DNA of 64,000 nt, taken from assembly GCF_012489685.1 (NCBI RefSeq), contig NC_080044.1, positions 51,584,964 to 51,648,963 on the forward strand. Reading direction: 5' to 3'. The position numbers and the translations under genes were made by a program. The DNA is from Lotus japonicus. Lineage: Eukaryota; Streptophyta; Magnoliopsida; Fabales; Fabaceae. Positions 2,686 to 55,962 of this stretch are shown in pieces (position 1 is the first letter of the stretch; each line of letters starts with the position of its first letter). The notes below the pieces were generated by a model, which saw only the letters and a list, made by a program, of their open reading frames with translations, was not told where the DNA came from and did no database searches.

Positions 2686-2881
2686 ATTGTTTGTGGTTTT
2701 TGGTTTAAGTTTTTAGTTTGTGGTTTTATTTTTTGTTTTTATCTTTGTCTAGAATTGGTGCTACTAATCTTTCTCTGTTTGAGTGTCACACTTTCAGGTT
2801 GCTCTCGAGAGAGACACCATCATGGGTGGCCATATGACGGAGGAGGAGATGCAAGCCCATATCGAGGCAAGAATCCAAGAG

Positions 2882-2886
2882 GGGAT
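2882..2886. repeat. Target-site duplication of the solo Sirevirus LTR, left copy
   Basis: GGGAT at 2882-2886 is repeated at 4094-4098 directly after the solo LTR. Confidence 0.9.
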
Positions 2887-4093
2887 TGTAAGATCAAGTT
2901 TTGATCTAGTAGTACAACTCTATGTTTTGATGATTACAAGTTAACCTTTTGATATGAACAATTGTGGTACTCTAACGTGTTTTTCTGAGTGTGCTATTTG
3001 TAGGTTCTGACCTCAACTCAATCTCACACAAATCAGAAGCACTGTGTATAAAGAGTAACCCAAGCAGCGCTTTCGCATTCACCATGTTCAGTATGAACAG
3101 TGGAAAAGCTTCAGAAGTTCTGAAGCTATACAAACTCTGATGTGGACTCAGTCGCTAGAAGCTTTGAAGATCCAGAAGTTCTGATAACCTAGAAACACTG
3201 AAGGTTCAGATGTTCTGATGGTGTAGAAGACTCTGAAGATCCAGAAGCTGAATAGTGGAAACTCTGATGTCCAGAAGCAAGAAACTCTGAAGGCCATGTT
3301 CTTCCCTCTGAGTTCAGAATCAGAAGATACAATGGTCAGAGGATCTGTGCTTTCCCTCTGACTCTGATCAACCGGCTTCACAAGTTCCAATATGAAGTAT
3401 TCCCCTGATCAGAAGTCTCCTAGGTTAAAATGTCAAGTCGCTATCCAAGTACAAAAGCAAGTGTACCTTCCTGACGACCTACCTAACGTTCTCAGCCACA
3501 GCAGAAGCTGGATTTTCCAGAACTGCCCTCCAACGGTAGCATTTTCCATGCATTGCTCAACCCTAATCCTTGGAGTATATATAGAGGCTGAAGATTGAAA
3601 GAAGCGGCTAGAAGCAAGATATATGCACAAGATATATTCAAAATATTCTAAGCTTTCTTTCATCTGAAATTCATTGAGTTTACTATTAGCTTTTTAGAAG
3701 CAAATCTCTTGTAAACAATCCTTTGATAAACAGTTTGTTTAGTTCCTTTAGGAGATCAAGGTTGATCGGATCCTAGAGAAGACTAAGAGAGTGAATCTTA
3801 GTGTGAGCTAAGTCAGTGTAATTGTTAGTCACTTGTAGGTTTCAAGTGCAGTTGTAACTCTTACCTGATTAGTGGATTGCCTTCATTCTAAGAAGGAAGA
3901 AATCACCTTAACGGGTGGACTGGAGTAGCTTGAGTGATTTATCAAGTGAACCAGGATAAAATCCTTGTGTGCTTCTCTATCTCTTATCTTTAGCACTTAA
4001 GTTCTCGAAAGATTTGTCAAAATCTTTAAGGTGGAAGTTTTGTACTGAAAACGTTATTCAAACCCCCCCTTTCTACCGTTTTTCATACCTTCA
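2887..4093 (+). mobile_element. Solo LTR of the SV Sirevirus family
   Basis: 1207 bp, begins TGTAAGATC and ends CCTTCA, flanked by perfect GGGAT duplications. It is clearly the same family as the SV1 LTRs but more different from them than they are from each other (for example around 3000-3020 and 3595-3640). It is therefore an independent, probably older, insertion reduced to one LTR by LTR-LTR recombination. A TATA box (TATATATA) sits at about 3576-3583. Confidence 0.93.
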
Positions 4094-4128
4094 GGGATCA
4101 CCCTTCGATTACGTGAACAAGAAGTTGA
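4094..4128 (+). pseudogene. ATH gag fragment between two Sirevirus insertions
   Basis: A 35-bp remnant of ATH gag: the right GGGAT copy (4094-4098), about ten codons, and the left duplication of SV1 (GTTGA, 4124-4128). It keeps the gag reading frame. Confidence 0.8.
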
Positions 4129-5341
4129 TGTAAGATCAAGTTTTGATCTAGTAGTACAACTCTATGTTTTGATGATTACAAGTTAACCTTTTGATATGAA
4201 CAATTGTGGTACTCTAACGTGTTTTTCTGAGTGTGCTATTTACAGGCTCTGACCTCAACTCAATCTCACACAAATCAGAAGCACTGTGTATAAAGGGTAA
4301 CCCAAGCAACGCTTTCGCATTCACCATGTTCAGTATGAACAGTGGAAAAGCTTCAGAAGTTCTGAAGCTATACAAACTCTGATGTGGACTCAGTCGCTAG
4401 AAGCTCTGAAGATCCAGAAGTTCTGATAACCAAGAAACACTGAAGGTTCAGATGTTCTGATGGTGTAGAAGACTCTGAAGATCCAGAAGCTGAATAGTGG
4501 AAACTCTGAAGTCCAGAAGCAAGAAACTCTGAAGGCCATGTTCTTCCCTCTGAGTTCAGAATCAGAAGATACAATGGTCAGAGGATCTGTGCTTTCCCTC
4601 TGACTCTGATCAACCGGCTTCACAAGTTCCAATATGAAGTATTCCCCTGATCAGAAGTCTCCTAGGTTAAAAGGTCAAGTCGCTATCCAAGTACAAAAGC
4701 AAGAGTACCTTCCTGACGACCTACCTAACGTTCTCAGCCACAGCAGAAGCTGGATTTTCCAGAACTGCCCTCCAACGGTAGCATTTCCCATGCAACGCTC
4801 AACCCTAATCCTTGGAGTATATATAGAGGCTGAAGATTGAAAGAAGTGGCTAGAAAAAAAAGAAATACACACGCGCAAGACATTTTCAAAATATTCTAAG
4901 CTTTCTTTCATCTGAAATTCATTGAGTTTACAATTAGCTTTTTAGAAGCAAATCTCTTGTAAACAATTCTTTGATAAACAGTTTGTTTAGTTCCTTTAGG
5001 AGATCAAGGTTGATCGGATCCTAGAGAAGACTAAGAGAGTGAATCTTAGTGTGAGCTAAGTCAGTGTAATTGTTAGTCACTTGTAGGTTTCAAGTGCAGT
5101 TGTAACTCTTACCTGATTAGTGGATTGCCTTCATTCTAAGAAGGAAGAAATCACCTTAACGGGTGGACTGGAGTAGCTTGAGTGATTTATCAAGTGAACC
5201 AGGATAAAATCCTTGTGTGCTTTTCTATCTCTTATCTTTAGCACTTAAGTTCTCGAAAGATTTGTCAAAATCTTTAAGGTGGAAGTTTTGTTCTGAAAAC
5301 GTTATTCAAACCCCCCCTTTCTACCGTTTTTCATACCTTCA
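4129..5341 (+). repeat. SV1 5' LTR
   Basis: 1213 bp, TGTAAGATC to CCTTCA. TATA box (TATATATA) at about 4818-4825. Near-identical to 14628-15842. Short open frames on both strands recur in every copy of this LTR and are not considered genes. Confidence 0.95.
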
Positions 5342-5343
5342 AT

Positions 5344-5355
5344 TGGTATCAGAGC
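5344..5355 (+). other. SV1 primer-binding site (initiator Met tRNA)
   Basis: TGGTATCAGAGC follows the LTR after two bases and is the standard Copia PBS complementary to the initiator tRNA-Met 3' end. Confidence 0.9.
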
Positions 5356-5413
5356 GCAAGTTCTGATTACCACACCTAACAGTGTTCAGTGATCCGGGCC
5401 GGTGTGAAAAACA

Positions 5414-7324
5414 ATGGCTGCCACCACCAGTGAAACTCAAAGAGATGGTTACAACGCAAAGCCTCCTATGTTCGATGGTCAAAGGTTCGAATATTGGAAA
5501 GATAGACTGGAAAGTTTCTTTCTGGGTTTCGATGCAGATCTCTGGGATATTATTGTGGATGGCTATGAGCGTCCAGTTGATGCAGATGGCAAGAAGATCC
5601 CAAGGTCAGAGATGACTGCAGATCAAAAGAAGCTGTACTCACAACATCACAAAGCAAGAGCAATTCTTCTAAGTGCTATTTCCTATGAGGAGTACCAGAA
5701 GATTACAGATCGTGAGTTTGCTAAAGGCATTTTTGAATCTCTGAAGATGTCTCATGAAGGAAACAAGAAAGTCAAAGAATCAAAGGCATTGTCTTTGATC
5801 CAAAAGTATGAATCCTTCATCATGGAGCCAAATGAGTCCATTGAAGAAATGTTCTCCAGATTTCAATTGCTTGTAGCTGGCATACGACCTCTCAACAAGA
5901 GCTACACAACAAAAGATCATGTCATAAGGGTCATCAGGTGTCTTCCTGAAAGTTGGATGCCTTTGGTGACTTCAATAGAGCTCACGAGAGACGTTGAGAA
6001 TATGAGTTTAGAAGAACTCATCAGCATTTTGAAATGCCATGAGCTGAAACGCTCAGAGATGCAAGATCTGAGGAAAAAGTCCATAGCCTTGAAATCCAAA
6101 TCTGAAAAGGCTAAGGTTGAGAAGTCAAAGGCTCTTCAAGCTGAAGAAGAAGAATCTGAAGAAGCATCAGAAGATTCTGATGAAGATGAGCTGACTCTGA
6201 TCTCCAAGAGACTCAACCGCATCTTGAAGCACAGGCAGAGCAAGTTCAAAGGCTCTGGAAAGGCAAAAGGAAAGTATGAGTCCTCAGGCCAGAAGAAGTC
6301 TTCAATCAAGGAAGTCACATGTTTTGAGTGCAAAGAATCTGGGCACTACAAAAGTGATTGTCCAAAGTTGAAGAAAGACAAGAAGCCAAAGAAGCACTTC
6401 AAGACGAAGAAGAGTCTGATGGTGACATTTGATGAATCAGAGTCAGAGGATGTTGACTCTGATGGTGAAGTCCAAGGACTCATGGCAATTGTCAAAGACA
6501 AGGAAGCAGAGTCAAAGGAAGCTGTTGACTCTGACTCAAAATCAGAAGGAGATCCTAACTCAGACGATGAAAATGAGGTATTTGCTTCTTTCTCTACCTC
6601 TGAACTGAAACATGCTTTGTCTGATATCATGGATAAGTATAACTCTTTATTGTCTAAGCATAAAAAGTTGAAAAAGAACTTATCTGCTGTCTCCAAGACT
6701 CCTTCTGAACATGAGAAAATTATTTCTGATTTGAAAAATGAAAATCATGCTTTGGTAAATTCTAACTCTGTGCTTAAGAACCAGATTGCTAAGTTAGAAG
6801 AAATTGTTGCCTGTGATGCCTCTGATTGTAGAAATGAATCTAAGTATGAAAAGTCTTTTCAAAGATTCCTAGCTAAAAGCGTGGATAGAAGCTTAATGGC
6901 TTCAATGATCTATGGCGTAAGCAGAAATGGAATGCATGGCATTGGCTATTCTAAACCAATTAGAAATGAGCCTTCTGTGTCTAAAGCTAAATCCTTGTAT
7001 GAATGCTTTGTTCCCTCTGGTACCATATTGCCTGATCCTGTACCTGCTAAAATTGCTAAAAACCCTCTTAAAAAGGGATCTTTCTCTATGACTAAATATC
7101 ATGCAAATATTCCTTTAAAATATTATGTTGAGACACCCAAGGTGATCAGAACCTCTGGGGTAACTAACAAAAGAGGACCCAGAAAGTGGGTACCTAAGGA
7201 CAAGATTATCTATGTTGCAGATATCCTTGATAGCTCCACTGAAACACCAATCATGGTATCTGGACAGTGGATGCTCGCGTCACATGACGGGAGAAAAGCG
7301 TATGTTCCGAGAGCTGAAACTTAA
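5414..7324 (+). CDS. gag: SV1 Gag polyprotein
   Basis: 636 residues, the capsid and nucleocapsid precursor that packages element RNA in cytoplasmic virus-like particles. A Copia-type gag core (UBN2/Retrotran_gag_2-like) spans about residues 15-220, then a Lys/Glu-rich acidic stretch, then a CCHC zinc knuckle ([14 protein letters not shown]) at about 303-316. An acidic Ser/Asp region and a probable coiled coil lie at about 400-470. The ATG is 58 bp after the PBS. The frame is intact. It ends 112 bp inside the protease region, in a different frame from pol, exactly as in SV2. About 96% identical to SV2 Gag. Confidence 0.92.
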   Translation: MAATTSETQRDGYNAKPPMFDGQRFEYWKDRLESFFLGFDADLWDIIVDGYERPVDADGKKIPRSEMTADQKKLYSQHHKARAILLSAISYEEYQKITDREFAKGIFESLKMSHEGNKKVKESKALSLIQKYESFIMEPNESIEEMFSRFQLLVAGIRPLNKSYTTKDHVIRVIRCLPESWMPLVTSIELTRDVENMSLEELISILKCHELKRSEMQDLRKKSIALKSKSEKAKVEKSKALQAEEEESEEASEDSDEDELTLISKRLNRILKHRQSKFKGSGKAKGKYESSGQKKSSIKEVTCFECKESGHYKSDCPKLKKDKKPKKHFKTKKSLMVTFDESESEDVDSDGEVQGLMAIVKDKEAESKEAVDSDSKSEGDPNSDDENEVFASFSTSELKHALSDIMDKYNSLLSKHKKLKKNLSAVSKTPSEHEKIISDLKNENHALVNSNSVLKNQIAKLEEIVACDASDCRNESKYEKSFQRFLAKSVDRSLMASMIYGVSRNGMHGIGYSKPIRNEPSVSKAKSLYECFVPSGTILPDPVPAKIAKNPLKKGSFSMTKYHANIPLKYYVETPKVIRTSGVTNKRGPRKWVPKDKIIYVADILDSSTETPIMVSGQWMLASHDGRKAYVPRAET

Positions 7325-10268
7325 GCCTGGAGGCGAAGTTGGCTTCGGAGGAAATGAAAAGGGTAAAATTGTTGGTACTGGTACTATTTGTGTAGATAGT
7401 AGTCCATGCATTGATAATGTTTTATTGGTAGACGGCTTAACACATAACTTATTGTCTATAAGTCAATTAGCTGACAAGGGTTATGATGTTATATTCAATC
7501 AAAAGTCCTGCCGGGCTGTAAGTCAGATCGATGGCTCTGTTCTGTTTAACAGCAAGAGGAAGAACAACATTTATAAGATCAGATTATCTGAGTTGGAGGC
7601 TCAGAATGTGAAGTGCCTTCTGTCTGTTGATGAAGAGCAGTGGGTATGGCATAGACGGTTAGGGCATGCCAGTATGAGAAAGATTTCTCAGCTGAGGAAG
7701 CTAAATCTTGTCAGGGGCTTACCCAATCTGAAGTTCGCTTCAGACGCTCTTTGTGAAGCATGTCAGAAAGGAAAATTCACAAAAGTCCCTTTCAAGGCAA
7801 AGAATGTTGTCTCAACCTCAAGGCCGTTAGAACTTCTGCATATCGACCTGTTTGGACCAGTGAAAACTGAGTCTATAGGTGGCAAGAGATATGGGATGGT
7901 TATCGTTGATGACTATAGCCGCTGGACATGGGTAAAGTTTCTAACCCGCAAGGATGAGTCTCATGCTGTGTTCTCTACCTTCATTGCTCAAGTGCAAAAC
8001 GAGAAGGCTTGTAGGATTGTGCGTGTCAGAAGTGACCATGGTGGAGAGTTTGAGAATGACAAGTTTGAGAGTCTGTTTGATTCCTATGGAATTGCACATG
8101 ATTTCTCTTGTCCCAGAACTCCTCAACAAAATGGTGTTGTTGAGAGGAAGAACAGAACTCTTCAGGAGATGGCTAGAACCATGCTCCAAGAAACTGGCAT
8201 GGCTAAGCACTTTTGGGCAGAGGCAGTAAATACAGCATGTTACATTCAGAACAGAATCTCTGTGAGACCAATTCTGAATAAGACTCCTTATGAATTGTGG
8301 AAGAACATAAAACCCAACATTTCTTATTTTCATCCTTTTGGCTGTGTTTGTTATGTTCTCAATACTAAGGATAGATTGCATAAATTTGATGCTAAGTCTT
8401 CTAAGTGTCTATTACTTGGTTATTCTGATAGATCTAAAGGTTTTAGATTTTATAATACTGATGCTAAGACTATTGAAGAATCTATTCATGTTAGATTTGA
8501 TGATAAGCTTGACTCTGACCAGTCAAAGCTAGTTGAAAAGTTTGCAGATTTAAGCATTAATGTTTCTGACAAAGGCAAAGCTCCAGAGGAAGTTGAGCCA
8601 GAGGAAGATGAACCAGAGGAAGAAGCTGGTCCCTCTAACTCACAAACTCTGAAGAAGAGCAGAATCACTGCAGCTCACCCTAAGGAATTGATTCTGGGCA
8701 ACAAAGATGAACCAGTCAGAACCAGATTTGCCTTCAGACCCTCTGAAGAGACCTTGCTGAGTCTGAAAGGATTGGTGTCCTTAATTGAACCCAAGTCCAT
8801 AGATGAAGCTCTTTAGGACAAGGATTGGATTCTGGCCATGGAAGAAGAATTGAATCAATTTTCCAAGAACGATGTTTGGAGCTTAGTGAAGAAGACTGAG
8901 AATGTTCATGTTATTGGAACGAAATGGGTATTCAGAAACAAGCTAAATGAGAAAGGAGAAGTAGTCAGAAACAAGGCAAGGCTAGTTGCTCAAGGCTACA
9001 GCCAGCAGGAAGGAATAGACTACACTGAAACATTTGCTCCGGTAGCAAGACTGGAGGCAATTAGACTGTTGATCTCCTTCTCAGTAAATCACAACATAGT
9101 TCTACATCAGATGGACGTAAAGAGTGCCTTCCTAAATGGTTATATCTCAGAGGAAGTCTATGTTCATCAACCCCCAGGTTTTGAAGATGAAAAGAAACCA
9201 GACCATGTGTTCAAATTGAAGAAATCACTCTACGGTCTGAAGCAAGCTCCCAGAGCATGGTATGAGAGACTTAGCTCATTCCTTCTGGAGAATGAGTTTG
9301 TAAGGGGTAAAGTAGATACAACTCTTTTTTGCAAGACTTATAAAGATGATATCTTAATTGTGCAAATTTATGTTGATGATATTATATTTGGTTCTGCTAA
9401 TCAATCTCTATGCAAAGAATTTTCTGAGATGATGCAGGCTGAATTTGAGATGAGTATGATGGGAGAATTAAAGTACTTTCTGGGAATACAAGTTGATCAA
9501 ACACCAGAAGGAACATATATCCATCAGAGCAAGTACACTAAAGAACTTCTGAAGAAGTTCAATATGCTGGAATCTACAGTGGCCAAGACTCCAATGCATC
9601 CTACATGCATTTTGGAGAAAGAAGATAAAAGTGGTAAAGTATGTCAGAAGCTCTATCGTGGAATGATAGGTTCACTTCTATACTTAACTGCATCTAGGCC
9701 AGACATATTATTTAGTGTTCACTTATGTGCTCGTTTCCAATCAGATCCAAGGGAAACCCACTTAACTGCTGTTAAGAGGATCCTAAGGTATCTGAAAGGC
9801 ACCACTAACCTTGGCTTGATGTATAAGAAAACATCAGAGTATAAGCTTTCAGGTTATTGTGATGCTGATTATGATGGAGATAGAACAGAGAGAAAAAGTA
9901 CTTCTGGAAATTGTCAATTTCTGGGAAGCAATCTAGTCTCATGGGCAAGCAAGAGGCAATCAACCATTGCACTATCAACTGCAGAGGCAGAATATATCTC
10001 AGCAGCAATATGCAGCACTCAGATGCTCTGGATGAAACATCAGCTGGAGGATTATCAGATCCTTGAGAGCAATATCCCAATCTATTGTGATAACACTGCT
10101 GCAATCTCATTGAGTAAGAATCCTATCTTGCATTCAAGGGCAAAGCACATTGAGGTAAAGTATCACTTTATTAGAGATTATGTACAGAAGGGCGTACTTC
10201 TTCTGAAGTTTGTTGATACTGACCATCAATGGGCAGATATCTTTACAAAGCCCTTAGCAGAGGATTGA
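7212..10268 (+). pseudogene. pol: SV1 Pol (protease, integrase, RT, RNase H) with internal stop
   Basis: The order is protease ([10 protein letters not shown] at about 7260), GAG-pre-integrase His/Cys region (about 7650), integrase core (Asp at about 7845, DHGGEF at about 8034, Glu in VVERK at about 8141), RT (YVDD at about 9369) and RNase H (CDADY at about 9858, STAEAEY at about 9976). This Copia order makes, imports and integrates cDNA. An in-frame TAG at 8814-8816 separates integrase from RT where SV2 has Gln. A TGA at 10266-10268 replaces an Arg codon and removes the last residues. Otherwise about 98% identical to the intact SV2 Pol. The frame is shifted relative to gag. Confidence 0.92.
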
Positions 10269-10759
10269 TTTAATTTTATTCTAAAAAATCTAAACATGGA
10301 CTTTTGTCCAGAGTGAAGATGGATCAGAACCTCTGACTATGATACTTCTTGATCAGAAGATGTCTAGTCCAGAAGGTAACTCAATCAGAGTGTGTGTGCC
10401 CACTGGTACTGACTCTGAAGCTGAGACAACAACACGTGTGTCAGAAATTCTGATGCATAATTCCTTGTGCCCGTGTGACAGTCTGTTATGATTGCGTGTA
10501 GATATGCTTATCTCCTGTGTGTGATTGTGTATTTTACTGTTACTATCTATCTTTAATTTTCAACCGTTGATCTTAAAGTGCTTTTTGAATCAACAACGGT
10601 TATTTGATAAAACCCACTATACACACACGTTCTCGTTCACTTCCGATTTTCACTCTCGCACTCTCTGCTTTTCAAAACCGCCTCTTTCTTGATTTCTCTC
10701 TCGATCTCTCTTCATCCTTCAAACTTCATCTTCTACCTCAAACCTTCAACCTCTTCAAA
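10269..10759 (+). other. SV1 spacer between pol and extra ORF
   Basis: About 490 bp without a domain I recognise. The frame of the following ORF is open upstream to 10604, but the first Met that is also usable in SV2 is at 10760, so 10604-10759 is treated as leader. Nothing else is seen. Confidence 0.5.
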
Positions 10760-13381
10760 ATGGTGAGACAAACCAGAAGATCTACTGCAGATGCACCTCA
10801 GTTCCCTCACATGGAAGTTGGTTTGGCAACGGGTCAAAGGGGCTCTGAGAACCCGGCACAAGAACAAGTTCAAGTTCAAGAGCAGATTGTTCCAATTGCA
10901 GAACGGGGCTGTGCCGTTCACTGCGTATTTGCTCCTGAGGAACTCCAAGTCCTGGCAGAATGGAGATTCGACCTCGACAACCTGGCTGCAAACGGGTTTG
11001 ATCTTCGTCCTGAAGTCCAAGCTCAAGGTTGGGGAAACTACTTCAACCGACTTCGAGGACCGGTGTATGAGAAGTTGGTCAAGGAATTCTGGAAGCACGC
11101 CGACTGCGATGATACTCAAGTGGTATCTCATATTCTTGGCAGGAAGATCATCATCACGGAGAAGTCATTCGTGAATCTGCTAGGTGCAGACACTGCTTAT
11201 GGGTTTCGATTCCCATTCACTGAGTCGAAGCTGAAACCCAGCACCAAAGACAAAACCAACCAGGCCCTGTACACCACTTTCAAACCGGGCAAGACAAGTT
11301 ACAAGGTGATGGACCTTCACCCCAACCTCAGGATCTGGCACAAGATCCTGCTCAACTGCATCAATGCTGGTTGCACAGAGGACTTGAGCACAATTGTCAG
11401 CGATGTCTTCACTGCCAACTCTCTGAAGAAGATGGGTTTGGTCCAGAAGAAGATTGCTCCTGCTCATGAAGACACATCTTTTGAGATCAGAGGAAGAAGG
11501 ATGCCTCTGAATGACTACCCACTGTGGACTCAAGCAGACAATCCTGAAGCCATCAGATGCTATGTTGAAGACCTCAGGGCTCAAGGATTCGAAATTGATC
11601 TTGATGATTTCTTCAGCAGACTGCCGCCAGCTCCAGAGTTTCCTTCTCCTCCCAAGAAGAAAGCTCAAAGGAAGATGGTTCTGGAAGAATCCTCTGAAGA
11701 CTCTGATGTCCCTCTGGTCAAGAAGACAAAGAGAAAGCCTGATGATGGTGATGATAGTGATAGTGAGGATGGTCCTCCAAAGAAGAAGCAGAAGAAGGTC
11801 AGAATCGTGGTGAAGCCTACTCGGGTGGAACCAGCTGCTGCAGTGGTCAGAAGGACTGAACCTCCTGCCAGAGTGACTCGATCATCAGCACATTCAAGTA
11901 AGCCTGCACTTGCTTCTGATGATGATTTGAATTTATTTGATGCACTACCTATTTCTGCCTTGCTTCAACACTCCTCAAATCCCCTCACTCCTATTCCTGA
12001 ATTCCAACCAGCCGCACAAACCACCTCTCCACCACATTCCCCACGATCCTCCTTCTTTCAACCTTCTCCTACCGAAGCACCTCTCTGGAATTTGCTTCAG
12101 AACCCAACCTCTAGGTCAGAAGATCCAACCTCTCTCCTTACCATTCCGTACGACCCATTATCTTCTGAACCCATCATCCATGACCAATCAGAGCCCAACC
12201 AAACAGAACCACAACCCAGAACGTCTGATCACTCTGCTCCCAGAGCATCAGCACGTCCTGCTGCCAGAACCACGGATACAGACTCTTCAACAGCCTTTAC
12301 ACCTGTATCCTTCCCAATCAATGTTGTTGATTCTTCTCCCTCCAATAACTCTGAATCAATTAGAAAATTCATGGAGGTTAGAAAAGAGAAGGTGTCTGCC
12401 TTGGAAGAGTATTACCTTACCTGTCCAAGCCCTAGGAGATATCCTGGCCCTAGACCTGAACGTCTAGTTGACCCAGATGAACCTACCTTGGCCAATCCTA
12501 TCCAAGAGGCAGACCCCTTAGTTCAACAAGCTCACCCTGTCCCTGACCAACAAGAGCCCATTCAACCAGACCCTGAACCCGAACAATCAATGTCTAACCA
12601 ATCCTCGGTTAGATCACCTCACCCTCTGGTTGAAACTTCAGACCCTCACCTTGGAACCTCTGAACCCAATGCTCCCATGATTAACATTGGTTCTCCACAA
12701 GGTGCCTCTGAAGCTCATAGCAGCAATCACCCAGCCTCTCCTGCACCCAACCTCTCCATAATTCCCTATACTCACCTTCAACCCACATCTCTCTCTGAGT
12801 GCATCAATATCTTCTATCATGAAGCCTCCTTGAGGCTCCGCAATGTGCACGGTCAGACTGATCTCAGTGAGAATGCTGAAAATGTGGCTGATGAGTGGAA
12901 CAATCTGAGCACTTGGCTAGTGGCTCAAGTTCCGATTATGATGCAGCTCCTGCATGCAGAGGGCAGTCAGAGCATTGAGGCTGCAAAGCAAAGGTTTGCT
13001 AGAAGGGTGGCTCTTCATGAACTAGAACAGAGAAATAAGCTTCTTGAAGCTATTGAAGAAGCCAAGAGAAAGAAAGAACAAGCAGAAGAAGCTGCACGTC
13101 AAGCAGCAGCTCAAGCTGCACAAGCAAGACTTGAGGCAGAGCGACTTGAAGCTGAGGCTGAAGCTCTTAGATGCCAAGCACTTGCACCAGTTGTGTTTAC
13201 TCCTGCTGCTTCTGCTTCCATTCCAGATCCTCAAGCTGCTCAGAATGTTCCTTCCAGTTCTACTCAGACAAGCTCATCCAGACTCGACATCATGGAACAA
13301 CGTCTTGACACTCATGAATCCATGCTGATTGAGATGAAGCACATGATGATGGAACTTCTGCGACGCACTGACAAACCTTAG
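10760..13381 (+). CDS. SV1 extra (envelope-like) ORF
   Basis: 873 residues from the Met at 10760, which is conserved in SV2. The N-terminal 250 residues resemble the putative plant transposon protein domain called envelope-like in legume Sireviruses. Then come Lys/Glu-rich nuclear-signal-like blocks, a long Pro/Ser/Thr-rich region (about 400-640), and a C-terminal Ala/Glu/Arg-rich coiled coil (about 730-800). I see no convincing signal peptide or membrane span, so a true envelope role is doubtful. Compared with SV2 it lacks about 79 residues in frame near residue 206, inside the N-terminal domain. Otherwise the frame is open. Confidence 0.75.
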   Translation: MVRQTRRSTADAPQFPHMEVGLATGQRGSENPAQEQVQVQEQIVPIAERGCAVHCVFAPEELQVLAEWRFDLDNLAANGFDLRPEVQAQGWGNYFNRLRGPVYEKLVKEFWKHADCDDTQVVSHILGRKIIITEKSFVNLLGADTAYGFRFPFTESKLKPSTKDKTNQALYTTFKPGKTSYKVMDLHPNLRIWHKILLNCINAGCTEDLSTIVSDVFTANSLKKMGLVQKKIAPAHEDTSFEIRGRRMPLNDYPLWTQADNPEAIRCYVEDLRAQGFEIDLDDFFSRLPPAPEFPSPPKKKAQRKMVLEESSEDSDVPLVKKTKRKPDDGDDSDSEDGPPKKKQKKVRIVVKPTRVEPAAAVVRRTEPPARVTRSSAHSSKPALASDDDLNLFDALPISALLQHSSNPLTPIPEFQPAAQTTSPPHSPRSSFFQPSPTEAPLWNLLQNPTSRSEDPTSLLTIPYDPLSSEPIIHDQSEPNQTEPQPRTSDHSAPRASARPAARTTDTDSSTAFTPVSFPINVVDSSPSNNSESIRKFMEVRKEKVSALEEYYLTCPSPRRYPGPRPERLVDPDEPTLANPIQEADPLVQQAHPVPDQQEPIQPDPEPEQSMSNQSSVRSPHPLVETSDPHLGTSEPNAPMINIGSPQGASEAHSSNHPASPAPNLSIIPYTHLQPTSLSECINIFYHEASLRLRNVHGQTDLSENAENVADEWNNLSTWLVAQVPIMMQLLHAEGSQSIEAAKQRFARRVALHELEQRNKLLEAIEEAKRKKEQAEEAARQAAAQAAQARLEAERLEAEAEALRCQALAPVVFTPAASASIPDPQAAQNVPSSSTQTSSSRLDIMEQRLDTHESMLIEMKHMMMELLRRTDKP

Positions 13382-13573
13382 TTTTAGGATCTCTTCTTTT
13401 TCTTCTTTTTCGTTACCTTTGTTTTCCTTTGTTAAACTCTGTTTCTTTTTATTCTCTTTTGTTCGTTTGTGATTATATATGCATAACTATATACTTATGT
13501 CACATATGTTTGCTAAACTCGTTTTATTCATAATTGTTTTGTGTTTACATCATATTTCTTTCCATCATATAAT

Positions 13574-13966
13574 CTAGAATGGAGGATCTCTCCTCATTCT
13601 TCTGCACTCCTGGCGCTGCTCTGACCTATCCTTCTCCAGACGCTCCAGTACATGCTGGATGTTGCTGAGCCTGATCTTTAGCTCATCCCTCTCCAGAATC
13701 TCTTCTGAAGTCTTGAGCTTCTCTTCCAAACTCTCTTTCTCTTCCAGCAGCTTGAGTTCAAGCCGGCTGAGTTCTTGCACCTCCTCCACGAAGGCAAGAA
13801 ATTCCTTCAGGTCTCTCTCCAACTCTGGACGCAGGTCCTCTTCCAGCAGTGTCCGTGTCAGCTCCGCGATGGTAGTTGCACCTTCTGGATGCCTGATGTT
13901 CAGGAACAAGTCCTCTTCAAAGGCCTTCTTCCTCAGCTCTTCTAGTGCTACGTTGTATGATGCCAT
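13574..13966 (-). CDS. SV1 antisense accessory ORF (130 aa, coiled-coil)
   Basis: 130 residues on the strand opposite gag-pol, tail-to-tail with the extra ORF. It is very rich in Glu, Leu, Arg and Lys with heptad-like spacing, predicting a coiled coil, and ends with the basic tail QECRRMRRDPPF. The same ORF with identical length, start and stop is in SV2 (46783-47175). By hand count about 20 codons differ silently and about 27 by replacement, fewer replacements than neutrality predicts. A TATA box lies 55 bp before the ATG. The frame is open upstream to a Met at 14017, but the Met at 13966 is the one shared with SV2. No known family recognised. Confidence 0.75.
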   Translation of the reverse strand: MASYNVALEELRKKAFEEDLFLNIRHPEGATTIAELTRTLLEEDLRPELERDLKEFLAFVEEVQELSRLELKLLEEKESLEEKLKTSEEILERDELKIRLSNIQHVLERLEKDRSEQRQECRRMRRDPPF

Positions 13967-14020
13967 TTTTTTCTTACTGAAAATTATTCGAGGTGTGAAG
14001 CTTACCTTTCTCTCCAACGC

Positions 14021-14092
14021 TTTTTATAGGCTTCACTTTCTCTCTGAAAGTTAATGCTCTTACAGTTTCTCGAGGTTAAGTTCTTGGTAACT
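14021..14092 (-). promoter_or_regulatory. Conserved promoter block of the SV1 antisense ORF
   Basis: On the minus strand a block of about 68 bp (14025-14092) matches SV2 46657-46724 with a single visible mismatch and runs into a TATA box (TATAAAAA, 14021-14028). It ends 55 bp before the antisense ATG. The flanking DNA, including the ORF itself, is much more diverged between the two copies. Promoter function is inference from position and conservation. Confidence 0.65.
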
Positions 14093-14134
14093 GAGCCTTC
14101 TATTTACTCACACCCCAAGCTTTTTGCTTATGAC

Positions 14135-14627
14135 AAAAAGGGGGAGTAAACCCAGTTTTTGATTTGTAAGATGTGTTAGTGTGACTTATTTTTCTTTTGG
14201 AGATTTTAAGAGTTCCACCTTCATGACCATAGATGTGTCACTGGGCAAATACAAGGAATACATTTCACTTCTTCTGAAGTGATTCTAAGTTGACTCTGAT
14301 ACCCAAGACTCTGATACCTTGTCCCTGACTCTGATCACTTATGCGCTATGATTATTCGTTTTTCATCTATGTCATAAGCTTTTCACTCTGAACTCTTATA
14401 TTTTTTAGCTCAGAATCTAGACTTTACTAACGTTTTCATCAAGTATTAGATTTAGGGGGAGCTAAGCTCAGAATCAAGCAGTGACTTGAATTCAGAATGA
14501 GCAAGATAAACTATTCACATCAGGATAAGTCTTATTCTATATCTCTAAACTCTGAGTGAATTCAGTTTAATGTTTAAGAATTGTTCATCAAAAATCTTAG
14601 TTTTGTCATCATCAAAAAGGGGGAGAT
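14135..14627 (+). other. SV1 multiple polypurine tracts
   Basis: AAAAAGGGGGA occurs at 14135-14145, AGGGGGA at 14454-14460 and AAAAAGGGGGAGAT at 14614-14627 next to the 3' LTR. The last is the plus-strand primer. Repeated polypurine tracts upstream of the 3' LTR are a described Sirevirus trait. The rest of this non-coding stretch shows no feature. Confidence 0.75.
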
Positions 14628-15842
14628 TGTAAGATCAAGTTTTGATCTAGTAGTACAACTCTATGTTTTGATGATTACAAGTTAACCTTTTGATATGAAC
14701 AATTGTGGTACTCTAACGTGTTTTTCTGAGTGTGCTATTTACAGGCTCTGACCTCAACTCAATCTCACACAAATCAGAAGCACTGTGTATAAAGGGTAAC
14801 CCAAGCAACGCTTTCGCATTCACCATGTTCAGTATGAACAGTGGAAAAGCTTCAGAAGTTCTGAAGCTATACAAACTCTGATGTGGACTCAGTCGCTAGA
14901 AGCTCTGAAGATCCAGAAGTTCTGATAACCAAGAAACACTGAAGGTTCAGATGTTCTGATGGTGTAGAAGACTCTGAAGATCCAGAAGCTGAATAGTGGA
15001 AACTCTGAAGTCCAGAAGCAAGAAACTCTGAAGGCCATGTTCTTCCCTCTGAGTTCAGAATCAGAAGATACAATGGTCAGAGGATCTGTGCTTTCCCTCT
15101 GACTCTGATCAACCGGCTTCACAAGTTCCAATATGAAGTATTCCCCTGATCAGAAGTCTCCTAGGTTAAAAGGTCAAGTCGCTATCCAAGTACAAAAGCA
15201 AGTGTACCTTCCTGACGACCTACCTAACGTTCTCAGCCACAGCAGAAGCTGGATTTTCCAGAACTGCCCTCCAACGGTAGCATTTCCCATGCAACGCTCA
15301 ACCCTAATCCTTGGAGTATATATAGAGGCTGAAGATTGAAAGAAGTGGCTAGAAAAAAAAGAAATACACACGCGCAAGACATATTCAAAATATTCTAAGC
15401 TTTCTTTCATCTGAAATTCATTGAGTTTACAATTAGCTTTTTAGAAGCAAATCTCTTGTAAACAATTCTTTGATAAACAGTTTGTTTAGTTCCTTTAGGA
15501 GATCAAGGTTGATCGGATCCTAGAGAAGACTAAGAGAGTGAATCTTAGTGTGAGCTAAGTCAGTGTAATTGTTAGTCACTTGTAGGTTTCAAGTGCAGTT
15601 GTAACTCTTACCTGATTAGTGGATTGCCTTCATTCTAAGAAGGAAGAAATCACCTTAACGGGTGGACTGGAGTAGCTTGAGTGATTTATCAAGTGAACCA
15701 GGATAAAATACTTGTGTGCTTTTCTATCTCTTATCTTTAGCACTTAAGTTCTCGAAAGATTTGTCAAAATCTTTAAGGTGGAAGTTTTGTTCTGAAAACG
15801 TTATTCAAACCCCCCCCCTTTCTACCGTTTTTCATACCTTCA
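14628..15842 (+). repeat. SV1 3' LTR
   Basis: 1215 bp, TGTAAGATC to CCTTCA, TATA box at about 15317-15324. About three substitutions from the 5' LTR, plus a longer C run near 15811-15818. Followed by GTAGA (15843-15847), the imperfect right target duplication. Confidence 0.95.
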
Positions 15843-19401: not shown

Positions 19402-20792
19402 TGATGACCCTAGTTTAGTAGTGTTTTTAGGGTCATTTCTTAGTTTGTTTTGAGTCTTTTTGTTGAGTCTCATGTAGTGTTTCATGCATTCTCATGCATT
19501 TTTATCTTTATTTGTGTTTCTACTTTATTTTGGTAATTTCATAGTTTTATAGGGACCTTTCATGCATTTTAAGTAAGTTTAAGACTTGCATATCTTTTCT
19601 ACTTGAATTGAGGGTCTTTTGTGCTAATAAACTCTTGGAAATCCTAGATATTTTCCTTGCTTTGTTCCCAAGCAGCTAGGTCTGAAAACTGATGAAGAAA
19701 GAAGGTCAAAAGGCTTGGAAAATTGAAGGGAGGCTTAAAGGGAAGTTAAGAAGAAGGTCAAGAGGCTTCCTAGCATGTAGAGAGCGCTCAGGCGCTCGTG
19801 TTGAGCGCCTGAGCGCCAATTGGATCGATGTTTACAAGATGCTAGAAAGGAATTGGCGCCTGAGCGCTCTTGATTGAGCGCCTGAGCGCCAATTACTTCC
19901 AGAGAGCATGTTTTCAGCTTGGAATTGGCGCTCAGGCGTGCTTAATTGGCGCCTGAGCGCCCAGACTCGACCTGTTTGCCTATAAATAGGCTTTTTGCCA
20001 TTTCTTTTGTAACTTTTGTCATTTCTATACATCCCTAAATAAGTGAGAAGTAGGGTTAGGCTCTGGAGCTTGAGGAGAAGCATTCTCCAAGTTCATGTTC
20101 CAGGTTTTATCCTTCTTTTCTTGTATGGATTCTATAGCCATGCTTGGCTAAAACCCCTTTTGCTTTGGGTTCTTTGTAAGACTTTGAATGTTTTAGCTAT
20201 CAATCCTTTTCTATTCATGATGTTCTGAGTAAACCCTTGAATCTCACTTCTATGCTTTATCTTTCAAGCTTGAATGCATGCTAGCTTCTTACTTTTCTAT
20301 AATCATAACGATAGTTTGTTATAGAATTGGGACTTGTTGTGAGATTACTCCTTCTATACTTGCTACTAGGAATAGAGGAAGGGTTGGGGTTTGTTGGCCT
20401 GATTTGTATGCTTAGTGCTTCTAGCAAATGTTTAGGTTATCAAGGAATTGAACCTATCTTTTGATTAGGAAGGGTTTTCTTTGCGAGGCATCGAAAGATA
20501 ACTAACTAGGCTAGAACATCAAGGAGATACTCCGGATTAATTGAATAGGAAGGTTTGCTAAAACTGAATTAGTTGAACAAGAACCCAAGGCAATATCATC
20601 TCTGTTTTTCAATTGCTTTATTACTTGGCTACTTGTCTTTTTACAAACTCGAGAAACAACCAATTATTAAAACTGAATTTTACTCGCTTTACTACCGTGA
20701 ACTCGAGGCTTAAACTGAATTGCCACACCAATTCCCTGTGGTTCGATAATTTAAAACCGGGTGAATTCCGTACACTTGCGGATTGACCAACA
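19402..20792 (+). repeat. ATH 3' LTR
   Basis: 1391 bp, same ends as 1271-2661. The seven differences seen include one in the GC palindrome cluster and two in the last 25 bp. Followed by GCCCT (20793-20797). Confidence 0.95.
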
Positions 20793-46530: not shown

Positions 46531-46656
46531 TAGAGAAGGTCTAAGTTGTAAGAAAATAAAAACGATGCAAGAATCAGAGTTAGGCGAATTAAAGAGAAGA
46601 GTTAATGCAGAAAAGAGGAGCGTTTACCACCGGCCAAAGGAGTAAAGATAAGGGTC

Positions 46657-46728
46657 AGTTACCAAGAACTTAACCTCGAGAAACTGTAGGAGCATTAACT
46701 TTCAGAGAGAAAGTGAAGCCTATATAAG
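46657..46728 (+). promoter_or_regulatory. Conserved promoter block of the SV2 antisense ORF
   Basis: Counterpart of 14021-14092, with one mismatch visible over about 68 bp. It ends in TATATAAG at 46721-46728, 55 bp before the ATG at 46783, the same spacing as SV1. Confidence 0.65.
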
Positions 46729-46782
46729 GCAATGGAGAATGGGTTAAGCTTCACAACTCGAGCAATATCATAACAGAGAAAA

Positions 46783-47175
46783 ATGGCATCATACATGATC
46801 ACATTAGAAGAGCTGAGAAAGAGAGCCTTTGAGGAGGACTTGTTCCTCAACATTAGGCATCCAGAGGGTACAACAACCATCTCAGAGCTAACACGGACAC
46901 TGCTGGAGGAGGACCTGCGTCCAGAGTTGAAGAGAGACTTAAGGGAATTCCTTGCCTTCGTGGAGGAAGTGCAAGAACTCAGCCAGCTTGAACTAAAGCT
47001 GCTGGAAGAAAGAGAAATTATAGAGACGAAGCTCAAGACTGCAGAAGAAATTCTGGAGAACGATGAGCAGATTGTCAATCTCAACAACACCCAGTATGCA
47101 CTGGATCGCTTGGAGAAGGAGAGGTCAGAGCAGCGCCAGGAGTGCAGAAGAATGAGGAGGGATCCTCCATTCTAG
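46783..47175 (+). CDS. SV2 antisense accessory ORF (130 aa, coiled-coil)
   Basis: 130 residues, same length, start and stop as SV1 13574-13966, about 79% identical. The first 75 residues (around HPEGTTTISELTRTLLEEDL) and the last 17 (EQRQECRRMRRDPPF) are the best conserved; the central helix varies. It lies opposite in orientation to gag-pol, tail-to-tail with the ruined extra ORF. That this ORF stayed open while the neighbouring extra ORF decayed, in the same element, argues it is not a by-product of the sense coding sequence. Function unknown. Confidence 0.75.
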   Translation: MASYMITLEELRKRAFEEDLFLNIRHPEGTTTISELTRTLLEEDLRPELKRDLREFLAFVEEVQELSQLELKLLEEREIIETKLKTAEEILENDEQIVNLNNTQYALDRLEKERSEQRQECRRMRRDPPF

Positions 47176-47368
47176 GATTTTAGGAAAAAAAAAATATGAT
47201 GTAAACGCAGTTTATTATGAATAAAAAAAAATTTGCAAACATAATGTCAGATATATATATATATGCATAGATAATCACAAACGAGCAAAGTAAAGATTAA
47301 CAAGAAGGAACCAGAGGTTAACGAAATAAAACAAGGGAAAGAAAAATAAAAACGTAGAGATCCTAAAG

Positions 47369-50690: not shown

Positions 50691-53600
50691 TCACTCTGGA
50701 CAAAAGTCCATATTCAGATTTTTCAGAATAAAATTAAATCTATCCTCTGCTAAGGGCTTTGTAAAGATATCTGCCCATTGATGGTCAGTATCAACAAACT
50801 TCAGAAGAAGTACGCCCTTTTGTACATAATCTCTAATAAAGTGATACTTTACCTCAATATGTTTTGCCCTTGAATGTAAGATAGGATTCTTACTTAATGA
50901 GATTGCAGCAGTGTTATCACAATAGATTGGGATATTGCTCTCAAGGATCTGATAATCCTCCAGCTGATGTTTCATCCAGAGCATCTGAGTGCTGCATATT
51001 GCTGCTGAGATATATTCTGCCTCTGCGGTGGATAGTGCAATGGTTGATTGTCTCTTGCTTGCCCATGAGACTAGATTGCTCCCTAGAAATTGACAATTTC
51101 CAGAAGTACTTTTTCTCTCTGTTCTATCTCCAGCATAATCAGCATCACAGTAACCTGAAAGCTTATACTCTGATGTTTTCTTATACATCAAGCCAAGGTT
51201 AGTGGTGCCTTTCAGATACCTTAGGATCCTCTTAACAGCAGTTAAGTGGGTTTCCCTTGGATCTGATTGGAAACGAGCACATAAATGAACACTAAATAAT
51301 ATGTCTGGCCTAGATGCAGTTAAGTATAGAAGTGAACCTATCATGCCACGATAGAGCTTCTGACATACTTTACCACTTTTATCTTCTTTCTCCAGAATGC
51401 ATGTTGGATGCATTGGAGTCTTGGCCACTGTAGATTCCAGCATATTGAACTTCTTCAGAAGTTCTTTAGTGTACTTGCTCTGATGGATATATGTTCCTTC
51501 TGGTGTTTGATCAACTTGTATTCCTAGAAAGTACTTTAGTTCTCCCATCATACTCATCTCAAATTCAGCCTGCATCATCTTAGAAAATTCTTTGCATAGA
51601 GATTGATTAGCAGAACCAAATATAATATCATCAACATAGATTTGCACAATTAAGATATCATCTTTATAAGTTTTGCAAAAGAGAGTTGTATCTACTTTAC
51701 CCCTTACAAACTCATTTTCCAGAAGGAATGAGCTGAGTCTCTCATACCATGCTCTGGGAGCTTGCTTCAGACCATAGAGTGACTTCTTCAATTTGAACAC
51801 ATGGTCTGGCTTCTTCTCATCTTCAAAACCTGGGGGTTGATGAACGTAGACTTCCTCTGATATATAACCGTTTAGGAAGGCACTCTTTACATCCATCTGA
51901 TGAAGAACTATGTTGTGATTCACTGAGAAAGAGATCAACAATCTGATTGCTTCTAGTCTTGCTACTGGAGCAAATGTTTCTGTGTAGTCTATTCCTTCCT
52001 GCTGACTGTAACCTTGAGCAACTAGCCTTGCCTTGTTTCTGACTACATCTCCTTTCTCATTCAGCTTGTTTCTGAACACCCATTTTGTCCCAATTACATG
52101 GACACTCTCAGGCTTCTTCACTAAGCTCCAAACATCGTTCTTGGAGAATTGATTCAATTCTTCTTCCATGGCCAGAATCCAATCCTTGTCCTGAAGAGCT
52201 TCATCTATGGACTTGGGTTCAATTAAGGACACCAATCCTTTCAGACTAAGCAGGGTCTCTTCAGAGGGTCTGAAGGCTGATCTGGTTCTGACTGGTTCGT
52301 CCTTGTTGCCCAGAATCAATTCCTTAGGATGAGCTGCAGTGATTCTGCTCTTCTTCAGAGTTTGTGAATCAGAGGGACCAGCTTCTTCTTCTGGTTCATC
52401 TTCCTCTGGCTCAGCTTCCTCTGGAGCTTTGCCTTTGTCAGAAACATTTATGCTCATATCTGCAAACTTCTCAACTAGCTTTGACTGGTCAGAGTCAAGC
52501 TTATCGTCAAATCTAACATGAATAGATTCTTCAATAGTCTTAGCATCAGTATTATAAAATCTAAAACCTTTAGATCTCTCAGAATAACCAAGTAATAGAC
52601 ATTTAGAAGATTTAGCATCAAATTTATGCAATCTATCCTTAGTATTAAGAACATAACAAACACAACCAAAAGGATGAAAGTAGGAAATGTTGGGTTTTAT
52701 GTTCTTCCACAATTCATAGGGAGTCTTATTCAGAATTGGTCTCACAGAGATTCTGTTCTGAATGTAACATGCTGTATTTACTGCCTCTGCCCAAAAGTGC
52801 TTAGCCATGCCAGTTTCTTGGAGCATGGTTCTAGCCATCTCCTGAAGAGTTCTGTTCTTCCTCTCAACAACGCCATTTTGTTGAGGAGTTCTGGGACAAG
52901 AGAAATCATGTGCAATTCCATAGGAATCAAACAGACTCTCAAACTTGTCATTCTCAAACTCTCCACCATGGTCACTTCTGACACGCACAATCCTACAAGC
53001 CTTCTCGTTTTGCACTTGGGCTATGAAGGTAGAGAACACATCATGAGACTCATCCTTGCGGGTTAGAAACTTTACCCATGTCCAGCGGCTATAGTCATCA
53101 ACGATAACCATCCCATATCTCTTGCCACCTATAGACTCAGTTTTCACTGGCCCAAAAAGGTCGATATGCAGAAGTTCCAACGGCCTTGAGGTTGAGACAA
53201 CATTCTTTGCCTTGAAAGGGACTTTAGTGAATTTGCCTTTCTGACATGCTTCACAAAGAGCGTCTGAAGCGAACTTCAGATTGGGTAAGCCCCTGACGAG
53301 GTTTAGCTTGCTCAGCTGAGAAATCTTTCTCATACTGGCATGCCCTAACCGTCTATGCCATACCCACTGCTCTTCATTAACAGAAAGAAGGCACTTCACA
53401 TTCTGAGCCTCTAACTCAGATAATCTGATCTTATAAATGTTGTTCTTCCTCTTGCTGTTAAACAGAACAGAGCCATCGATCTGACTTACAGCCCGGCAGG
53501 ACTTTTGATTGAATATAACATCATAACCCTTGTCAGCTAATTGACTTATAGACAATAAGTTATGTGTTAAGCCGTCTACCAATAACACATTATCAATGCA

Positions 53601-53795
53601 TGGACTACTATCTGCACAAATAGTACCAGTACCAACAATTTTACCCTTTTCATTTCCTCCAAAGCCAACTTCGCCTCCAGGCTTAAGTTTTAGCTCTTGG
53701 AACATACGCCTTTCTCCCGTCATGTGACGCGAGCATCCACTGTCCAGATACCATGATTGGTGTTTCAGTGGAGCTATCAAGGATATCTGCAACAT
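50691..53795 (-). CDS. pol: SV2 Pol, intact
   Basis: 1034 residues without interruption. Protease [10 protein letters not shown] at about residues 18-27; GAG-pre-integrase at about 145-200; integrase DD35E with Asp at about 211, Asp of DHGGEF at about 274 and Glu of VVERK at about 310; RT with YVDD at about 719-722; RNase H CDADY at about 882 and STAEAEY at about 922; ends 16 residues beyond [11 protein letters not shown]. All expected catalytic residues are present. It overlaps gag by 113 bp in another frame, so expression would need frameshifting or a separate start; the ATG at 53795 is simply the first in frame. This copy could in principle serve defective relatives. Confidence 0.93.
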
Positions 53796-55593
53796 AGATA
53801 ATCTTGTCCTTAGGTACCCACTTTCTGGGTCCTCTCTTGTTAGTTACCCCAGAGGTTCTGATCACCTTGGGTTTCTCAACATGATAATGTAAAGGAATTT
53901 TTGCATGATATTTAGACATAGAGAAAGATCCCTTTTTAAGAGGAGGTTTAGCAACTTTAGCAGGTAAAGGATCAGGCAATATGGTACCAGAGGGAACAAA
54001 GCATTCATACAAAGATTTAGCTTTAGACACAGAGGGCTCATTTCTAATTGGTTTAGAATAGCCAATGCCATGCATTCCATTTCTGCTTACGCCATAGATC
54101 ATTGAAGCCATTAAGCTTCTATCTACGCTCTTAGCCAGGAATCTTTGAAACGACTTTTCATACTTAGACTCATTTCTACAATCAGAGGCATCACAGGCAA
54201 CTATTTCTTCTAGCTTAACAATCTGGTTCTTAAGCACAGAGTTAGAATTGATCAAAGCACGATTATCATTTTTCAAATCAGAGATAATTTTCTCATGTTC
54301 AGAAGGAGTCTTGGAGACAGCAGATAAGTCCTTTTTCAGCTTCTTATGTTTAGACAATAAAGAGTTATACTTATCCATGATATCAGACAAGGCATGTTTT
54401 AGTTCAGAGGTAGAGAAAGAAGCGAATACCTCATTTTCATCGTCTGAGTTAGGATCTCCTTCTGATTCTGAGTCAGAGTCAACAGCTTCCTTTGACTCTG
54501 CTCCTTTGTCTTTGACAATAGCCATGAGTCCTTGGACTTCACCATCAGAGTCAACATCCTCTGACTCTGATTCATCAAATGTCACCATCAGACTCTTCTT
54601 TGTCTTGAAGTGCTTCTTTGGCTTCTTGTCCTTCTTCAACTTTGGACAGTCACTTTTGTAGTGCCCTGATTCTTTGCACTCGAAGCATGTGACTTCCTTA
54701 ATTGAGGACTTCTTCTGGCCTGAGGATTCAGACTTTCCTTTTGCCTTTCCAGAGCCTTTGTACTTGCTCTGCCTGTGCTTCCAGATTCGGTTGAGTCTCT
54801 TGGAGATCAGAGTCAGCTCATCTTCATCAGAATCTTCTGATGCTTCTTCAGATTCTTCTTCTTCAGCTTGAAGAGCTTTTGACTTCTCAGCCTTAGCCTT
54901 TTCAGATTTGGATTTCAAGGCTATAGACTTTTTCCTCAGATCTTGCATCTCAGAGCGCTTCAGCTCATGGCATTTCAAAATGCTGATGAGTTCTTCTAAA
55001 CTCATATTCTCAACATCTCTCGTGAGCTCTATTGAAGTCACTAAAGGCATCCAGCTTTCAGGAAGACTCCTGAGAACCCTTATGACATGATCTTTTGTTG
55101 TATAGCTCTTGTTGAGAGGTCTTATGCCAGCCACAAGCAACTGAAATCTGGAGAACATTTCTTCAATGGACTCATTTGGCTCCATGATGAAGGATTCATA
55201 TTTTTGGATCAAAGATAATGCCTTTGATTCTTTGACTTTCTTGTTTCCTTCATGAGACATCTTCAGAGATTCAAAAATGCCTTTTGCAAACTCACGATCT
55301 GTAATCTTCTGGTACTCTTCATAAGAAATAGCACTTAGAAGAATTGCTCTTGCTTTGTGATGTTGTGAGTACAGCTTCTTTTGATCTGCAGTCATCTCTG
55401 ACCTTGGGATCTTCTTGCCATCTGCATCAACTGGACGCTCGTAGCCATCCACAACAATATCCCAGAGATCTGCATCGAAACCCAGAAAGAAACTTTCCAG
55501 TCTATCTTTCCAATATTCGAACCTTTGACCGTCGAACATAGGAGGCTTTGCATTGTAACCATCTCTTTGAGTTTCACTGGTGGTGGCAGCCAT
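53683..55593 (-). CDS. gag: SV2 Gag polyprotein
   Basis: 636 residues, same length as SV1 Gag and about 96% identical. Copia gag core at about 15-220, CCHC knuckle at about 303-316, acidic Ser/Asp segments and a coiled coil near 400-470. The ATG is about 58 bp after the PBS. The end overlaps pol as in SV1. Confidence 0.93.
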
Positions 55594-55663: not shown

Positions 55664-55962
55664 ATTGAAGGTGTGAAAAACGGTAGAAAGGGGGGGTTTG
55701 AATAACGTTTTCAAGATAAAACTTCCACCTCAAAGATTTTGACAAATCTTTCGAGAACTTAAGTGCTAAGAATAAGAGATAGAAAAGCACACAAGGATTT
55801 TTATCCTGGTTCACTTGATAAATCACTCAAGCTACTCCAATCCACCCGTTAAGGTGATTTCTTCCTTCTTAGAATGAAGGCAATCCACTAATCAGGTAAG
55901 AGTTACAACTGCACTTGAAACCTACAAGTGACTAACAATTACACTGACTTAGCTCACACTAA

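Follow-up and report, generated by a model that had tools for sequence, protein, structure and literature searches.

The window (the whole stretch of 64,000 nucleotides analysed here) contains two LTR retrotransposons, SV1 and SV2 (Table 1). Both match Retrotran_gag_2 and the integrase core (rve), in the Ty1/copia arrangement with integrase before reverse transcriptase (RT): in SV2, rve is followed by RVT_2 within one ORF, and the RT part of SV1 lies outside the domain scan. PMC2829016 describes as a hallmark of Sireviruses multiple AGGGGGAG polypurine octamers, the last of them lying 10 bp before the 3' LTR, and this pattern is found in both SV1 and SV2. Judged by octamers and domain order, SV1 and SV2 are members of the Sirevirus (SIRE) lineage of Ty1/copia. 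SV1 is young, since its two LTRs are nearly identical. Its extra, env-like ORF has a weak match to Transposase_32, under Pfam's cut-off. The surroundings of both elements are complex: a further LTR (97.4% identical) at 2877-4094 directly precedes the SV1 5' LTR, direct repeats at 1271-2661 and 19402-20792 (99.5% identical) flank SV1 as if it were nested in another element, and the SV2 5' LTR is in two pieces (55666-55963 and 57095-58011), seemingly split by an insertion.

Table 1. Features of the two Sirevirus copies and their antisense units (window coordinates; roles of signals are putative)
Feature	Position	Strand	Remarks
SV1 5' LTR	4129..5341	+	identity of 99.6% with the SV1 3' LTR
SV1 gag and pol ORFs	5414..10268	+	Retrotran_gag_2 at 5414-7324; integrase core at 7212-8816; domain scan left out 8838-10268
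SV1 extra (env-like) ORF	10604..13381	+	925 codons; convergent with the antisense gene
SV1 AATAAA	13523..13528	-	resembles a poly(A) signal; 45 nt past the stop codon
SV1 3' island TATGATGTAAA	13544..13554	-	far-upstream-element-like
SV1 antisense ORF	13574..13966	-	130 codons plus stop; start ATG at 13966
SV1 leader island GTAAGCTTCAC	13995..14005	-	conserved; a start site ~30 bp after the TATA box would fall here
SV1 promoter-like block ending in TATA box	14020..14093	-	conserved; CCTATAAAAAG 14020-14030; CTTAACCTCGAG 14069-14080; CAGTTACCAAG 14083-14093
SV1 terminal polypurine octamer AGGGGGAG	14618..14625	+	further copies at 14139 and 14454
SV1 3' LTR	14628..15842	+	
SV2 polypurine octamers AGGGGGAG	45978, 46142, 46459, 46523	-	LTR ends at 45976
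SV2 promoter-like block with TATA box	46656..46729	+	CCTATATAAGG 46719-46729
SV2 antisense ORF	46783..47175	+	130 codons plus stop
SV2 3' islands	47195..47225	+	TATGATGTAAA 47195-47205; AATAAA 47220-47225
SV2 gag and pol ORFs	50691..55593	-	gag, integrase and RVT_2 matches

In both elements, an ORF lies on the strand opposite gag-pol, in the stretch from the env-like ORF to the polypurine tracts that precede the 3' LTR; in SV1, this ORF, its leader and a promoter-like block make up the range 13574-14092. A sequence-only reading of the window had described the two ORFs as equal in length, and they do align without a gap. They differ at 56 of 393 bases, a divergence of 14.2% where that reading had put about 20%, and the differences fall 13/14/29 on the three codon positions. 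Its count of about 20 silent codon differences agrees with ours (20), and its figure of about 27 replacements is corrected to 25. An ATG-initiated ORF of at least 130 codons arose in 2 of 4000 dinucleotide shuffles of the 1247-bp region from the extra ORF to the 3' LTR.

SV1 and SV2 are mosaics relative to one another, being 95% identical over 5045-11364 and 94.7% identical over 14108-15842, with 82.6% identity over 11773-14109. In finer windows the divergent stretch runs from ~10.5 kb to 14.04 kb and comprises the env-like ORF and the antisense ORF, which suggests that the two form a module exchanged between Sirevirus lineages. The extra ORF of SV2, earlier described as decayed, is broken, with two stops within its last 360 codons. 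Upstream of the promoter-like block (14093-14139), SV1 is without 144 bp present in SV2; SV1 probably carries a deletion there, since SV2 and 57 of 57 other loci compared differ from it.

We searched the whole genome (553.7 Mb in 65 contigs, six of them large) for further copies. With the SV1 or SV2 protein as query there were more than 4000 candidates, and the best 150 were scored for each query. The best 150 matches to SV1 were 98-100% identical, one of them with a stop; those to SV2 were, besides SV2 itself, 85-96% identical, and 14 of 150 had stops. Profile searches extended the family to three proteins of 129 aa each, P0005, P0006 and P0007, with 62, 55 and 45% identity to SV1. Among the best 150 genomic matches to P0007, identity reached 98% in the Lotus japonicus genome and then fell into groups near 75% and 67%; 136 of the 150 span residues 1-129 and 117 are stop-free. 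Over the best 150 for each of the three queries, 402 of 450 matches were stop-free. Two distant loci, L116 (a locus that matches P0007 at 98%) and L117, carry 129-codon ORFs that end in NPPF followed by TAA. Two proteins, P0001 and P0004, encoded on contigs of 561 and 483 bases labelled Bradyrhizobium sp. TM233, share 93-94% identity with the antisense protein; these contigs are probably plant DNA inside the assembly of a root bacterium.

The ATG, the length and the stop are in place in 100 of 103 loci, most of which were picked by protein similarity and are biased to that extent; two of the others have a stop and one (L091) has lost the ATG. We also used a second list, of 40 copies defined by flanking DNA near the polypurine tracts, 31 of which were examined. 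No defect was visible in 24 of the 31, six had stops and one was frameshifted; frequent frameshifts, which would have spoken against a gene, are thus not a feature of these copies, and in position and retention the locus belongs with antisense ORFs that lie between pol and the 3' LTR and are kept in most copies (class aORF-3R). Nineteen of the 31 had come from protein searches (16 without defect; eight of the 19 judged by the presence of stops only), and the remaining 21 flank-defined copies supplied 12 that were fetched (eight without defect) and nine that were left out. Because of these nine, and because the subset leans to good copies, the true intact share may be somewhat below 24/31.

An open sense frame of 158 codons, Ser-rich, overlaps the antisense ORF in both SV1 and SV2, and the third positions of the two frames coincide. 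For this reason the pairwise dN/dS between SV1 and SV2 (0.28 antisense, 0.29 sense) cannot separate the strands; on the same measure the antisense ORF is less conserved than gag (0.11) or integrase (0.09). Our main codon-likelihood set comprised 21 taxa (20 flank-defined copies and SV1). Duplicates were merged, stop codons were treated as missing, the frameshifted L109 was kept out of the likelihood and regression sets, and L001 and L059, the window's own copies, were excluded. With trees built from the ORF itself and no recombination model, in elements known to recombine, omega was 0.34 for the antisense frame (2dlnL 70.8 against omega 1) and 0.42 for the mirror sense frame (2dlnL 51.5), with values of 1.3-2.2 for the four other frames. 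Hence dN/dS is not near 1 across copies, the outcome that would have undermined the earlier proposal. Omega was similarly low on internal (0.31) and terminal (0.36) branches; dead copies should drift to 1, and the low terminal value may be explained by young insertions. A larger, protein-ranked set gave 0.32. We did not use protein-ranked SV1 copies alone as evidence for low omega, because the ranking itself favours it.

Regression on both frames together favours the antisense strand. In the 21 taxa, dropping the antisense frame cost 6.9-15.2 and dropping the sense frame 1.6-5.7; in 86 sequences, the costs were 14.5-25.2 and 3.2-4.9. We also compared the antisense ORF with the tail of the env-like ORF in a common set of 23 taxa, drawn up without loci that lacked one long env match. 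Omega was 0.355 for the antisense ORF and 0.305 for the env-like tail, placing the former close to another protein of the same element, and the mirror frame of env gave 0.55; a mirror signal therefore arises without coding. In L116 and L117 the antisense frame is open and the sense frame has two stops each; pairs with these loci gave an antisense omega of 0.18-0.28 at dS 1.3-2.5 and a mirror omega of 0.30-0.53, two pairs being saturated. From the regression, the omega values and the sense stops of distant copies, we conclude that the antisense strand is the one that codes. A weak additional constraint may act on the sense frame (2dlnL up to 5.7 in the 21 taxa).

Upstream of the ORF, as the sequence-only reading stated, a block of ~68 bp that ends in a TATA box has a single mismatch between SV1 and SV2. 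The contrast with the diverged ORF, which that reading took as evidence, fares less well in this pair, since identity rises from 0.77 over 13980-14039 to 0.97 over 14040-14099, a step that coincides with the TATA box, where the elements switch; we dropped the single-pair comparison. A block with one mismatch could be the mere edge of a shared recent segment, and for that reason we examined the whole family. In 54 copies, the majority selected for protein similarity, the block (-128 to -61) has the lowest diversity of 705 windows of 68 bp, so that its conservation stands. The block's diversity of 0.036 compares with 0.109 upstream, 0.149 at third codon positions and 0.301 in the part of the leader adjoining the ATG. 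The ratio of block diversity to that of codon position 3 was 0.24 (0.18-0.32), to that of the upstream flank 0.32 (0.22-0.48) and to that of codon position 2 0.61 (interval 0.45-0.87). Low block diversity persists in 530 pairs with divergence in both flanks. The TATA motif is TATAAA in 52 of the 103 loci and TATATA in 45, with three single variants; no TATA variant was found in the other three. Relative to the ATG, the distant copies L116 and L117 have a TATA box at -62 and -63, and CCTCGAGAAAC at -109 and -99, respectively. A 7-bp inverted repeat surrounds the SV1 TATA box (13995-14036), with GTGAAGC before it and GCTTCAC in the leader; both arms are in largely conserved columns in an alignment judged by eye.

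Past the stop codon, conservation is again confined to islands, with diversities of 0.020 (TATGATGTAAA), 0.065 (TTATGAATAAA) and 0.075 (TTTGCAAACAT) against a 3' mean of 0.209. An AATAAA lies within 110 nt of the stop in 98 of 103 loci (the five without it include L094), and at 32 nt in both L116 and L117. Since shuffled 3' stretches of this A-rich composition contain the motif in 55% of cases, it is the position and conservation of AATAAA, rather than its presence, that count as evidence. Plant poly(A) signals are laid out as a far-upstream element, AAUAAA and a cleavage region, and the sequence of the post-stop islands fits such a signal on the antisense strand.

The predicted SV1 protein is of 15.7 kDa and acidic (pI 4.9; family range 4.7-4.9). 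It is rich in Glu (21.5%), Leu (17.7%) and Arg (11.5%), the composition noted before. With 30 family members as input, the best of five structure models (pLDDT 79.6-91.7) reached pLDDT 91.7 and pTM 0.81. It is confidently helical, with helices predicted at residues 2-17, 20-25, 27-41, 47-86 and 90-126, and we read the predicted fold as an N-terminal helical bundle followed by a long helical hairpin. The C-terminus is nearly invariant. Sequence and fold comparisons gave no significant match, and protein searches returned only relatives that fit the Sirevirus element family. PF04195 was absent among the 25 Pfam-A families listed, all weak matches, for 30 members scanned at E up to 1, and on this measure the protein does not belong with the Retand-type Transposase_28 proteins.

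Taken at the level of sequence, the unit is composed of an upstream TATA block, a leader of ~55 bp, an ORF of 129-130 codons subject to purifying selection and poly(A)-like islands ~20-65 nt past the stop. The family-wide data (omega 0.34) support the earlier view that the antisense unit is under selection and carries a conserved promoter-like block, a view that holds in a stronger form than first stated. The sequence data leave very little doubt that this is a genuine gene, that it lies on the antisense strand and that selection acts on its protein; its assignment as a protein-coding antisense accessory gene of the Sirevirus (SIRE-lineage Ty1/copia) superfamily we regard as highly probable. 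Transcription by RNA polymerase II would start from an internal promoter of the integrated copy and would not depend on the LTR promoter; the resulting mRNA of ~0.5 kb would end before the convergent env-like ORF. The product would be a trans-acting adaptor or regulator of benefit to the element, and its candidate partners are Gag, the env-like protein (through its helical tail) or a host factor. Helical hairpins often bind partners, and the long history of selection on the protein suggests that it serves the element; a trans-acting adaptor role, suggested by the type of predicted fold and by selection, is nevertheless a tentative proposal to which we give somewhat less than an even chance.

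Among other readings, the one with most to recommend it is that the unit matters as antisense RNA, as a source of dsRNA or siRNA or by interference with the sense transcript, the ORF being secondary. The block is indeed more conserved than protein-changing positions (0.61 relative to codon position 2), and dsRNA roles for such units are discussed in PMC7264820. However, an omega of 0.34 and a near-exact ORF length across subfamilies whose silent sites are near-saturated require selection on the protein, which makes an RNA role by itself unlikely; RNA and protein roles can coexist. We hold it very improbable that the overlapping sense frame is the true gene, such as a tail spliced onto the env-like protein, with antisense openness as its mirror effect. 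Over the ORF, 98 of 103 loci keep that frame open, it runs to 158 codons in both SV1 and SV2, its omega is low (0.42) and its third positions coincide with those of the ORF, but the ATG that starts it in SV1 is GTG in SV2, the regression points to the antisense strand, L116 and L117 interrupt it twice each while their antisense omega is the lower, and the TATA box, the leader and the AATAAA islands all fit the antisense strand.

The idea that the conserved block is a mere recombination boundary, with SV1 and SV2 sharing a 3' segment of recent origin that reaches as far as the TATA box, derives from the identity step of that pair (0.77 to 0.97). It is similarly improbable, given that the block is the least variable window in 54 copies, remains low in 530 pairs with diverged flanks, and has a core that recurs in L116 and L117. 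The least probable reading, to which we attach almost no weight, is that a Sirevirus captured all or part of a host gene, which it has carried along and which is now neutral. Capture is a possible origin of the gene, and is compatible with protein searches that gave only relatives fitting the element family, but neutrality accords neither with an omega far below 1 (0.34) nor with stop-free copies in a subfamily of 45% protein identity. The protein-coding antisense gene thus remains our preferred reading. Our broadest interpretation, which we hold at even odds, is that an ancient Ty1/copia lineage evolved a complete antisense mini-gene, with TATA promoter, 130-codon ORF and poly(A) signal, independently of the Ty3/gypsy antisense genes, one that could escape LTR silencing and produce, from integrated copies, an adaptor or regulator of a new family. 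A protein this small, with natural variants in the hundreds within a single genome, makes the role of retrotransposon antisense genes directly testable.

No antisense gene of a Sirevirus was found in our literature search, whose coverage excluded subscription papers and supplements, and the word 'antisense' is absent from the passages of PMC2829016 covered. Sense eORFs are reported for 74% of SIRE elements in PMC6317226, a survey that took eORFs of at least 250 codons, a limit above the 130 codons of the present ORF; the passages covered are silent on reverse eORFs in these elements. On our broadest interpretation, the mini-gene would have been overlooked at least partly because this main survey counted only ORFs of that size; short conserved genes can escape notice when ORFs are filtered by length.

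Antisense accessory ORFs of plant elements have been reviewed, with Ty3/gypsy examples (PMC7264820, PMC11963269, PMC4093653). Apparently, and as far as Pfam links go, the Sirevirus gene is a second and unrelated case, in Ty1/copia. By description a close parallel is gene23 of Grande, a maize Ty3/gypsy element, which is likewise antisense, between pol and the 3' LTR and present in most copies (PMC7264820). Transcription from its own internal promoter and a nuclear location are reported for gene23 in the same source; the Sirevirus unit shares an internal, though putative, promoter. The antisense ORFs of Retand elements, also Ty3/gypsy, encode Transposase_28 (PF04195, TRP28) and many exceed 600 bp; the Sirevirus protein has no PF04195 among its listed matches. 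Closer in host is ORF2 of 15 Ty3/gypsy families of common bean (pvRetro13 and others), another legume, which lies in opposite orientation between the retrotransposase and the 3' LTR; as described, it is set apart by its length (211-939 aa, against 129-130 aa here) and by its gypsy rather than Ty1/copia context, and some members have an SMC-like domain (PMC4093653). Within Sireviruses themselves, the env-like ORF (eORF-3'F, SIRE clade) shares the same linker region and a similar omega (0.305 against 0.355), but it is on the sense strand, in convergent orientation to the antisense gene. The HBZ gene of HTLV-1 starts in the 3' LTR. As an antisense regulator protein of a retroelement, HBZ offers an analogy to the Sirevirus gene, with no claim of homology (PMC11963269).
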